A stretch of DNA of 33,446 nucleotides from a virus. Below the pieces are notes generated by a model. It was given only the letters and a program-made list of their open reading frames with translations. It was not told where the DNA came from and did not search any database. Positions 22,468 through 28,400 of this stretch are shown here, in pieces (within the stretch, counting starts at the first letter, position 1; each line of letters opens with the position of its first letter). Location of the stretch: IMG/VR virus record IMGVR_UViG_3300042691_010182, positions 1-33,446 of that record; one strand, given 5' to 3'. A program made the position numbers and the translations under genes.

Positions 22468-25400
22468 ATGAGCTTTGACGGACTGTTGTCGATTCGCCGG
22501 CCCTACGAGCGCCAAGTCGAAGTGCGCGAGCCGACGCTGGGCGAAGAGCTCATCGAGGTGGGGCGCGAAGCATTCGAGTTCAGTCCGACGCAATCCATCG
22601 TCCGCGGGCTGGAACTGCAAGAAGCCCGTCGCAGCAAGAACATCTTGTCAGCAGAAAGCGCCCGCGCCCAGCTTGGCAATGCGGGACTGCGCGAGCAGTT
22701 GACCGTGCCAGATCAAGGCATCAGTCAAGAGGCGCTCGACATCCTCATTCGTCGCAAGCAGATTGAGAATCGGCGCGCTGATCTCTATTCCAGAAGTCCC
22801 GGCGGTTTCGGTCGCGGCGCAGCTAAACTTGGGGCCAGCCTCGGGTATTCGCTCTTTGATCCGCTAAACATTGCCACGGCATTTGTGCCTGTGGTCAGTC
22901 AGGCTCGGTATGCGGCCATGCTCAGAGCGCAAGCCGGACTGGTTGGCCGCACCGGAGTGCGTGCCGGCGTCGGTTTTGTCGAGGGCGCTGCCGGTGCCGC
23001 GTTGGTTGAGCCACTCATTCTCGGCGTAGCTCAGGCAGAGCAGGCCGACTATGACGGCGCTGACTCCCTTCTCAATATCGCATTTGGAGGCATTCTGGGC
23101 GGTGGCCTTCATGCCGTGGGCGGCGCTGGGTACGAGGCCGTGCGTCGCCTCAGAGGGCTTGAGGCGCTGCCTCCGCGCACCGATGTCGAGGCTGCCGTGC
23201 AGCAGGCTCTCGCTGAGTCTCGCACCGAGCTGCCGAGCGCGCCGAGCGTGCCGCCGCCGGTCAAGGTGGAGACGTCCAAGCGGTTCGAGCCGTCTACTGT
23301 GCAGCCTGTCGACGCCTACACCGAGTCTGCGCAACGGATTCTGAAAGAGCTCAACAGCATCCTTGACCTCGACCCGAACAACACCAAGCAAGTGTCTCTG
23401 GCTACGGGCGAAAAAGCGGTATCGATTACTGAGTTCGTGCGCCGAGCCGGTGGAATTATCGATCAAGGCGGCGAGCTCTCGGCTAGAGACGTCACCAACA
23501 AGACTGCGCCCGGCTTGGTTCGCAAGGACACGCCAGAGAATCGGCAAATCGCCGGCATGGACTCCGTGCGCGAGCGGCTTTTCGATGCGGGATATTTCTT
23601 AGAAAAGACGGACTACAACCAGATTAGCGATTCCGAGATATTCGATGCGCTCGCCGAGGACATTGCCGGCAATCGAGTGTGGCAAGGCACGGTGCGCGAC
23701 AAGCTCTCCAAGTTCATTGGAGGCCGCGACTACATCTCGCTCATGGAGGCCGAAGGCTTTAGCCGGAGCATGTCTGTGGCGCAGATCGCCGATCGGCTGC
23801 GAGCGATGGACGATGAGGCCCGCGCCGAGTTCGATGTTGCCCGCGAGATCGACCCTGAGACGCTGCGCGAGTACGAAGCCTTTGCAGAGCGCCTCAATGC
23901 GCAAAATGCCGCGGTCAATATCGTCGACTCTCTGAACCCCGAAACCCGCCGCGCTGCGCTGCAGACTGGCGTGGCTCAAGCGATGGATGCCCGCGATATC
24001 AGCGTCGAAGCCATTGTCGGCCTTGATCCGTCGATTGCCCGCGGTGGCGAGGACTTCCCGCTGCAGTCTGCCCGCAATGCGGCCATTGAGAACTCACGCC
24101 CCGATCAGGCCGCGCTGGTGGACTTCGAGGCTGCTGCCGAGACGCCAGATCCGCGACGAGTGCCGATGCTAGACGCGGCCGATTCCGCGCTCGCCGATGC
24201 CCGTGCTGCGGCTGATGAAGCCGTCAATGCGGTCAATGCAGAAGGCGAGTTCCGTCGCAGCCTGATGGTGCAGGAAGAGCCGCAGCAGTTTGGCGATGTG
24301 CCGGTAACGGTCGACAATATCGCCAACGTCGAGGCAGCCTTTGAGCGCGCCCGCGGAAAGACGTTCCCGAATAACCGCGCATTCAAGAAAGAAATCCAAG
24401 ACGCGGTCAATGCCGCGGCCACGGATGCCGCGGTTGATCTTGCGGAGATGACGCCCGCCGTCGAGCGATACCTCATTCGCATGGCCGTGCGCGAAGCTCG
24501 GGTTGCCCTGCGCGATAACGCTAACGCGGTCGGCTGGTATAACGAAAAGGTCACCAAGGCGCTGCGCATCATCTCGCTGATTCATCCTGAGATCCTCAAA
24601 AGTCGTGAGGATAGGTTCGCGTTTACTTGGGCGCTGGCCGTTACGTCGAACGGGCTGAAGGTCGACAAGAACTTCGATCTCGCGATGAGGGCATACGAGG
24701 CTTGGAAAAAGACTGGCCGCATGCCAAGCGACATTGGCATTGGCACGGCCTCCAGCGCCATTAATAACTCGCTTGAGCTCTACAACGTGATGCTTAAGCA
24801 GCACGGATTCGATGCGCTTGAGAATTTCATGCGGTCGAAGGATACGGTCAAGAAAATCGAGGCGTTCTCGGGCCTTGAGGTTGGCGGAGAGAACCTTTCG
24901 ACGCAGGTCTATGGCTCGGCCATTCTCGGCCCGAAGATCGGCAACGGATTCTTCTCAAACTTGTACGGCAACTTTGAGCAGCTCACGATTGACCGCTGGC
25001 TCATGCGTACTTGGGGGCGCTGGACTGGGACGCTGATTGAGGAAAACCCGACGCAGGTCGCGGCCAAGAGAAAGTCACTTGTCTCGCTTATCCGATTGCT
25101 GGACAAGGACGAGCGCAAACAGCTTGAAGGCATCATTGGCAGGAAGATCGCTCTGGCTCGGCCGGACGAGATTGCGTTCGCCATTGCCAAGGCCAGTACC
25201 AAAAAGGCAAACAGAGCGGCTATTAATAAAATTGAGGCAGGGTTTTCCGAAGAAGCCTTGAGCTCGATTGTTGGCCCGTTGAAGAAAAACAAAGTCCGAA
25301 TCGGCCTAGGCGATGAAATTCGCAAAACGGGTAATGCTCTTGCAAAGTATATTGACGGGCAAAAAGAAGCTCCGTCTGGCCCGCCTGAGCGCGCCAACCT

Positions 25401-28400
25401 TCGCAAGGTGTTCGGCGCTGCCCTCGAGCAGCTCCAAAAAGACAACCCAGAGTTAACAATGGCTGACATGCAAGCCTTGCTCTGGTATCCTGAGAAGAGG
25501 TTATACGATGCAGCGGGTGCAGCAGATGAAGCAGTCGAAGCCGGATATGCAGACGATGCAGCCCCAGACTATGCCAACGCAGCGGCAAAGCTCGCCGAAG
25601 GACGAGGAGTCTCCAGAGACAGGATCGACGGAGTCACTCGAGCAGTTGACGAAGAGCTACAGGCCGAGCAACGCGCAGGACGAGCAGGACGAGCTGGTCA
25701 GCGAATTTCTAACTCTGCAGCGTTCACAGTAAATGAACAGCTCCAACTGTATCTCGATTTCGGGCCAGTTCCGACTCAAAGCGGCCCGCGAGCTGTCGCA
25801 GCCCAACGCGCCGCAGTCAAAGCGGTGGATGATCTACGATCCTCCTCCGACTTACTTGCACTCTCCTTGTCGCGTGATTTCGCTGCAAGACAGAGAGTCT
25901 CGCTTGTCGGGCAAAAAGTAAGCTCGACCGAAGACTTTGCCACGCTTGCGCAGGTCTACCGCGATCCGCGGTTCGAGACGCTGCGCTACGTCTTCACGGA
26001 TGATGACGGCGACATCGTTGCTCAGGCTGGCGTAACATCGCGTCTGCCGGCGTCTGCTAGCGCATTCGTTGGCCCAAGCGCCACGCTGTTCTTCGATAAC
26101 TTGATCGTGCGCGCCCAAGCAATGGGCGGCAAAAATGTCTATCTGCTGCACAACCACCCTAGCGAAATTGCGATCCCAAGTTCTGCCGATCGTAAATTCA
26201 CAGAAGACGCCGCTAAGTACTTCAAGGCTCGAGGAATGAAGTTCCTCGACCATGTGATCATCGACACCAACGAATACGCCGTTATTAAAGCAGACGGTGC
26301 TTTTGAAACGATCAAGAAAGACTTTGGTCAGCCAACACAGTTGCGGCTCAAGCGCATGGCGAACCGCCCAATATCTGGGCCGGCTGATCTCGCTAGCCTT
26401 GCTCGCGAACTCAAGTTCGATGACAAGGCGACTGTGCTGATCGCGACTAACAATAAGTACGTCGTTCAGAACATCACCGAGATTCCGCAAGAAAAACTGA
26501 TGTCCTATGGCGATACGCCGCAGGACAAGGCGCGTGCAATGTTTGCCCTGCGTAAGTTTGCGCTGGCGAGCGACTCGTCGTTCATCTTTGCCGTGACCCG
26601 CGATTACCCGTCTGCGCTCGCAATGCGCGACATTGCTCTCGACACGATCTTCATCGATGAGAGTGGCCGCGCAACATCTGTCGGCGCAGAGCAGGGTCGT
26701 GGCGGGCGCATCATTCCCGGTGAGCGACGAGCCCGTATGTCGCCAGAAACCAGCGCGGGGTTTGGCTATCTGCGTGAGCTCGGCGCCACGGAAGCCATGC
26801 GACAGAAGGGCGTGTTCGAGGAAGGCGCTGTCTACAATGCCGGCGATACCAAGGATCAGATGCGCCCGTTCGATGAGGCGATCACCCGCGCAGAGATGTA
26901 CGCTCAGGCTATCCGCGCTGCTGCTGATCGCGTTGGCAATGACGATGCCGCAAGAGGCGCGATGCAGATGGCATCGAAGGGCCAACTCACGGCGATGGAG
27001 ATCGACACGCTGCTGGCGCGGCTAAAGGACGAAAACACCCGCGTTCGCTCCACGCTCCGAAAAGCGCAGGAGCAATTCACGGCAGCAGACAAGATTGACT
27101 CACTCGAAGGCGACGCTACCCGCGCAGCCAACTCGCTCGCCAACAACATCAAGCTCGACGCCACAATCGCTGCCCGTAACGCCGCGCTCAGTCTCGCGGC
27201 ACGCACCAAGGCTGTCGGTCGCATCCTTACTCAGTTCGCAGACAACCCGTCAGAGGGTTTGCTGTCTCTGCTCGGCGGTTCGTCATTCGCCCGGTTCGGC
27301 TCCAAGGACTCGGCGTTCCATTGGCAGCGCACCTACTTCACCCGCTGGACGAAGGGCATGCTCGCCGAGATGGAGAAGGAAGGGCTCGTCGAGGGATTCG
27401 CGAGCGATGCCTACTCACGCGATGTTGCCCGCGCCCTGTACCAGATGGGTCGCGATGAGCCTCGCCTTGAAGGGCTCGACCCGACCGCGGTCAAGATCGC
27501 CAAGATCGTCTACAAGTACCGCGAGGACTCGCGCAACACCCGCAACCGATTCGGTGCGTGGATTCGTGACCTAACGGGATACATCACCCGCCAGCAGCAT
27601 GACTTCATGAAGATCCGTGCGGTGAGCGACAAGGACTGGAAAGACTTTGTGCGCCAGCGCATCGATGTCGAGCGATCGCTCAAGCCGGGGCAGAACCTTG
27701 AGGAGTTCCTCGATGTCGTCTATGCCGACCTCGCCGCTGGGCGTCACCTGTCTGCGATCGATGACGAGGCCGCGGCCTACACGGCACCGGGCTCGCTCGC
27801 CCGCCGAGCCTCGCAGTCTCGCGTCATCTACTTCAAGGATGCAGATGCCGAGTTCGATTACCTGACCGAGTTCGGCGTCGGCAAGCTCAACGAGGCAATC
27901 CTCGGCGATCTCAGTCGCGCAGCCCAGCAAGCCGGCTTGATGCGCGTGCTCGGCCCCAACCCCGGCTACACGCTCAAGGCGGTCATGGCCGAGGTCGAGG
28001 CTGGCCTTGTGCGCACGCCAGAACTGCGTGGCGAGTTTGCCGATGCCCGCGACACGGCAGAAGGCCTGCTCTCAATGCTCGACGGCACGGCCAATGTCCC
28101 CGGCAAGTCGATGGCCGCTCGCGTCGGCTCCAACGTGCGCGTCGTGCAGGCGATGGCAAAGCTCGGCGGTGCGGTCATCTCGGCCGTCACCGACCTGCCC
28201 GTATACGCGAGCCAGATCAAGTATCAGGGCCGCGGCGGTCTGTTCTCTGGTATTGCCGAAGGTATCGGTGGCCTCCTGCAGGGCCGCGCCAAGGGCGAGC
28301 GCAAACGCATCCTCGGGATGATCGACACCGTGGCCGACAATCTGGTTGGCAGCGTGGCGACTCGATTCGATTCAGATGACCTGATGTCTGCAGGGTCTGC

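Follow-up and report, generated by a model that had tools for sequence, protein, structure and literature searches.

Some phage genes lie entirely inside another gene, in a different frame, and have ribosome-binding sites of their own; B, K and E of phiX174 are examples from the Microviridae. Those are small ssDNA genomes under packaging pressure, whereas the gene considered here lies within a gene of 7-9 kb in a tailed phage, and the likeness drawn is one of architecture. To our knowledge, tailed phages have few genes that are wholly embedded out of frame, and most of these serve lysis. An embedded +1 gene in a tailed dsDNA phage is exemplified by the spanins of phage lambda, in which Rz1 lies within Rz, and such genes are usually missed by gene callers (PMC6139136). 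In Pseudomonas phage Fc02, olg1/olg2 provide an alternate-frame overlapping ORF in a dsDNA phage gene; they sit by the repressor, and one overlapping protein gives superinfection exclusion (PMC9936078).

We analysed a stretch of viral DNA of 33,446 nucleotides, hereafter the window (IMG/VR record IMGVR_UViG_3300042691_010182). Comparison with relatives indicates, with a probability that we put at about 0.9, that positions 25508-25732 are a real overlapping coding gene, a member of a conserved family with the motif PxSAQQExNE, which would share the mRNA of its parent gene and be translated by internal initiation at an embedded Shine-Dalgarno (SD) sequence. Like Rz1, it is a small gene wholly within the +1 frame of another tailed-phage gene (PMC6139136). 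Rz1, however, is a lipobox lipoprotein in a lysis cassette, whereas the nested protein of the window lacks cysteine, and with it a lipobox, and its host gene encodes a virion protein. A Rz1-type o-spanin was rejected on two grounds: no cysteine was found in the nested proteins of the window or of the relatives scanned for starts, and the parent matches phrog_684/phrog_3003 and RadC, not an i-spanin gene in a lysis cassette. The Fc02 pair resembles the window in being an alternate-frame overlap in a dsDNA phage and differs in location, a likeness drawn by description (PMC9936078).

The parent is predicted to be a virion structural protein of the phrog_684/phrog_3003 kind, its designation in the earlier note as an ejected, polyvalent protein being at most putative, and most of the phage records that match it lack the middle, helical module that carries the nested gene. 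This module yielded no PDB match by fold comparison despite its confident model. The nested gene starts at the end of the helical module, just before a part of the parent that is variable among relatives. The earlier note had placed it in a linker between modules; this holds for about 25640-25732, whereas 25507-25640 still belongs to the upstream module of the parent and codes for helices that are conserved.

Features of the parent gene and of its +1 frame in the window (aa, residues of the parent protein)
Feature	Position	Strand	Basis or remark
Parent ORF, 2332 aa	22468..29466	+	ORF list, Pfam, PHROGs, AlphaFold model of module
Parent N-terminal phrog_3003 region			PHROGs
Parent all-helical module	~aa 611-1080		AlphaFold, mean pLDDT 87
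Parent RadC/JAB domain	aa 1215-1274		Pfam
Parent C-terminal phrog_684 virion structural region	aa 1500-2329		PHROGs
SD-like AAGAGG	25495..25500	+	7 nt before ATG 25508
Nested +1-frame gene as proposed	25508..25732	+	74 aa, ATG...TAA, pI 4.6
N-terminal extension, specific to the window's clade	25508..25640	+	start ATG 25508 or ATG 25526
Conserved core LTKSYRPSNAQDEQDELVSEFLTLQRSQ, then stop	25641..25732 (about; last third)	+	homologous to relatives' PxSAQQExNE proteins; possible TTG start 25646
Second +1-frame ORF, 62 aa	25733..25921	+	directly after nested stop (TAA ATG)

The gene had originally been proposed from a 74-codon +1 frame, an SD sequence seven bases before its ATG, and a GC content at third codon positions (GC3) of about 80% against about 40% in the parent. 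As descriptions these are accurate: the frame is in the ORF list, inside the parent ORF; the start region reads TCCTGAGAAGAGG-TTATACG-ATG, with 7 nt between AGAGG and the ATG; and over this segment GC3 is 0.787 when read in the nested frame versus 0.387 in that of the parent. The contrast in GC3 is nevertheless not evidence for a gene, because the third position of the +1 frame is the first position of the parent, whose codons in this segment almost always start with G or C (its product over the segment is rich in A, D, E, G and R); nested GC3 thus mirrors parent GC1 (0.80). The low GC3 of the parent also spans a region wider than the nested ORF. At 25168-25350 parent GC3 is likewise low without any synonymous constraint, so that low GC3 alone is no mark of overlap in this gene. 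The length of the ORF is a weak sign as well: the segment stays open in 41% of synonymous shuffles, and ATG-started +1 ORFs of at least 74 codons number six in the parent, with 3.8 expected from such shuffles (P=0.12). These values are compatible with a chance ORF, that is, a +1 frame open only because the parent is GC-rich and encodes many alanines and acidic residues, any conservation of the frame being a by-product of that of the parent. The signal above chance is the comparative one, not length or GC3.

Relatives were drawn from viral metagenomes, phage records and bacterial genomes; those of the parent module number 542. A first scan of bacterial genomes found none, and an alignment-based search gave six loci, several of them in genomes of Burkholderiales. 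When nested peptides were compared by tblastn with 50,697 phage records, only MW202640 matched, with the gene unannotated inside CDS UOF79766; Limnohabitans phage DC33 and MW202722 were located through the parent, not the nested peptide. No stand-alone nested gene was found: at all examined loci the nested gene sits in a parent frame that is open for at least 1,797 codons, some of these frames ending at contig ends. A +1 ORF at the nested site is kept in 96 of 97 distinct relatives, most with the motif PxSAQQExNE, and only L174 is truly broken. An automatic pattern scan recovered the core in 95 of the 97; L111 was missed by the pattern yet is intact, and L174 alone lacks the core. In the three most distant members (L021-L023) a small +1 ORF occupies the nested site, with less certain homology. 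L174, from a Hydrogenophaga sp. MAG, has an intact parent module and a +1 frame broken by stops, the only clear relative in this state; this natural loss can serve as a control.

Codon alignments of the parent were built for seven clades. Synonymous change was compared with a per-pair, per-amino-acid expectation taken from the flanks and, in five clades (W, the window's own, F1, F2, M and M3), from the whole gene; the rate test in W excludes L001/L003, whose divergence is uneven owing to recombination. As predicted in the earlier note for a nested gene, synonymous conservation is elevated over 25508-25732, which is the most constrained stretch of the 2332-codon parent: against the gene-wide expectation in W, the observed/expected ratio of the whole nested segment is 0.40, while the lowest value elsewhere for the same window size is 0.80. 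The nested core is the gene-wide synonymous minimum in all five clades tested. Over 30 codons its ratio, with a gene-wide expectation, is 0.26 in W, 0.45 in F1, 0.28 in F2, 0.03 in M and 0.18 in M3; the lowest non-overlapping 30-codon windows give 0.66, 0.63, 0.58, 0.59 and 0.42, respectively. Within the window's core, 12-codon windows fall to 0.04-0.09. The limits of the constraint were also located: in clades with an embedded SD the drop starts at the SD and start codon, and in F2 the constraint tapers off close to the +1 stop, at about codon 115 after the LTM motif.

The substitutions themselves change character over the core. Codons of the +1 frame have their wobble position at parent position 1. 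Substitutions at parent positions 1/2/3 are distributed 0.20/0.11/0.69 in the upstream flank of W and 0.26/0.17/0.57 in the flank of M; in the nested core they become 0.35/0.23/0.42 in W, 0.38/0.28/0.34 in F2 and 0.52/0.22/0.27 in M. The share of changes that are synonymous in the +1 frame rises from 0.10-0.19 in the flanks to 0.22-0.38 in the nested region, and the parent-synonymous share drops from 54-66% to 22-35% in five clades, with little change in M3. This shift toward the +1 wobble position is clear in F1, F2, most marine clades and the W core, and absent in the W extension, where substitutions remain mostly at third positions (0.19/0.16/0.65). At the protein level, among 105 pairs of representative sequences, whose counts are non-independent as sequences within clades are related, the +1 product scores above the parent in 76 and tops all 200 synonymous shuffles in 47. 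Pairs within W show a +1 identity of the core above the synonymous null, e.g. 0.90 vs 0.59 between the window and L005. Taken at the level of sequence, the comparison demonstrates selection on two frames, conservation of the SD and long-term maintenance.

A chance ORF predicts neither a gene-wide synonymous minimum nor a shift of substitutions to parent position 1, and would account neither for conserved embedded SDs nor for a +1 similarity exceeding that of the parent between deep clades. For the core it is refuted by the synonymous minimum, the position-1 shift and the +1 scores above shuffles, and we hold it to be highly improbable overall. Constraint on synonymous sites alone could also arise if a conserved RNA element (a structure, a regulatory or a packaging site) fixed them instead of a protein, and the normal codon-position pattern of the constrained W extension would suit such an element. 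Yet shuffled versions of the window segment fold better than the segment itself (z = +1.3), no Rfam family matches it, and an RNA does not explain the codon-position shift in the core, the conservation of the +1 protein, the motif shared among relatives or the start codon with its SD, which leaves an RNA element scarcely credible.

How translation would begin is best seen outside the window's clade. In most relatives the parent sequence (Q/K)EVDxEL is spelled CAG GAG GTA GAC xxT GAA, so that the +1 frame acquires AGGAGGT and, 5 nt further on, ATG, TTG or GTG. At the start site the residue of the parent varies (N/L/R/D), yet the +1 codon remains one of these three. In the AT-rich marine clades the parent uses CAG for 11-15% of its Gln residues and GAG for 9-12% of its Glu residues, and because both are rare there, the embedded-SD spelling is under selection. 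An SD match of at least 5 nt is present in 77 of the 97 distinct relatives; other relatives have GGAGAAGTCGATG or AAGGA-type variants. The nested protein would thus be made from the mRNA of the parent by internal initiation of ribosomes at an SD embedded in parent codons, in most relatives at the AGGAGGT site within (Q/K)EVDxEL; that it is translated, and where exactly it starts, we infer from these signals. A truncated parent with a nested tail would instead result if parent ribosomes underwent programmed +1 frameshifting. Frameshifting could explain F1, where the core is conserved, the upstream +1 frame is open and neither a clear start codon nor an SD adjoins the core (a few other clades also have the core without a convincing start codon or SD beside it), and it would fit the loss of the ancestral SD in W. 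In most relatives, however, the +1 frame is closed by a stop shortly before the site, and AGGAGGT follows at a distance suited to initiation from a start codon that is conserved; inspection of the codon alignment revealed no conspicuous slippery site. Frameshifting therefore appears unlikely.

In the window's clade, where the SD at the ancestral site has been lost, the nested frame reaches further upstream, and internal initiation may have moved with it, to ATG 25508 with AAGAGG as SD in the window and to the equivalent of 25526 in a sister subclade. The frame 25508-25732 is open in 11 of 11 W members. Near relatives of the window keep both the SD and the ATG at 25508, with AAGAGG matches in L176/L177/L180 and weaker ones in L005 and L009-L037. 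ATG 25526 is kept in 11/11 members, and the sister subclade, which includes L036/L037, has AGGAG-6nt-ATG there. The start claimed in the earlier note at 25508 thus applies to the window's own subclade and not beyond it, the ATG being absent in L036/L037 and the universal part of the gene being its C-terminal third; in the window it is the likeliest start, with 25526 and TTG 25646 as alternatives. The extension is itself constrained in W (0.47, with a minimum of 0.72 elsewhere in the gene), while the other four clades give 0.81-0.97 over it, values that do not stand out from the remainder of the gene. With its substitutions still rich in third positions, it is less certain as coding sequence than the core. 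The second +1-frame ORF is open in all W members. Over codons 93-156 the ratio is 0.69, below every other window of that size; in +1 identity the ORF surpasses the null when members of one subclade are compared, but not across subclades. It is possibly a continuation of the nested gene or a coupled gene.

Between L001/L003 and the window, divergence jumps from ~1-5% to ~20% just after the nested gene (25735 onward). This suggests a recombination breakpoint at which downstream modules of the parent (JAB and others) are swapped.

The products of the family are ~30-137 aa long and mostly acidic. The +1 product reads YRPSNAQDEQDELVSEFL in the window, YRPMSAQQEHDQENEDLALAREILG in L065 and MKNYQPYPESAQQEQNEDLENSFFAKLLG in L062; in marine relatives it reads MNSNVRPLSAQEEVNLEKEQEELYNEIILK and runs on to 124-137 aa, with VLENLMSTLPPELSQILAMVIPQLQSGSNLLDLVSMMNSQMDEEISDSQLESLEGLF or close variants at the C-terminal end. 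The marine product has a pI of 4.1 and is predicted to be helical at low confidence (mean pLDDT 68); fold comparison of its model gave no PDB match. Profile searches of the nested protein against Pfam and PHROGs returned no significant match. As neither a family nor a fold was matched, there is no independent clue to function. Since it is encoded inside a virion-protein gene, the product is probably made late, and a late-made accessory or chaperone of its virion protein is a guess that we offer as doubtful. We lean somewhat towards the wider view that this is an unseen tailed-phage family existing only out of frame in a giant virion gene and kept across deep lineages by its embedded ribosome-binding site, at an apparent point of module exchange, where it may act with the virion protein (in assembly, packaging or dosage control) and fix the module boundary.

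The proposed overprinting thus stands on the comparison of homologues, partly for other reasons than those first given. It would represent a rare hidden tailed-phage gene with comparative support, in the form of selection signatures in several clades, codon-level conservation of the SD and deep conservation of the product. A widespread phage protein would thereby be missed by gene callers: it is absent from Pfam and PHROGs and carries no annotation in any of the three phage records inspected (MW202640, DC33 and MW202722). We found no description of it in the open-access literature, a coverage outside which preprints and subscription journals largely fall.

In the marine relatives L082-L121 the nested protein's C-terminal half is encoded opposite a part of the parent that is itself conserved, TGLPLNPDGTVTVYHHT...SAGEPDVYVTTR, some 110-200 codons beyond the LTM motif; with conservation in both frames, this makes an unusually long dual-coding stretch. 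The hidden gene is open to testing in DC33 (L253, PQ492659.1), a cultured phage of 39 kb, in which the nested ORF occupies 27566-27781 on the complement strand, encodes 71 aa and has AAGGAG as its SD. The record of DC33 files the phage under Inoviridae, the filamentous ssDNA phages, a taxonomy that looks wrong given its tailed-phage virion gene.
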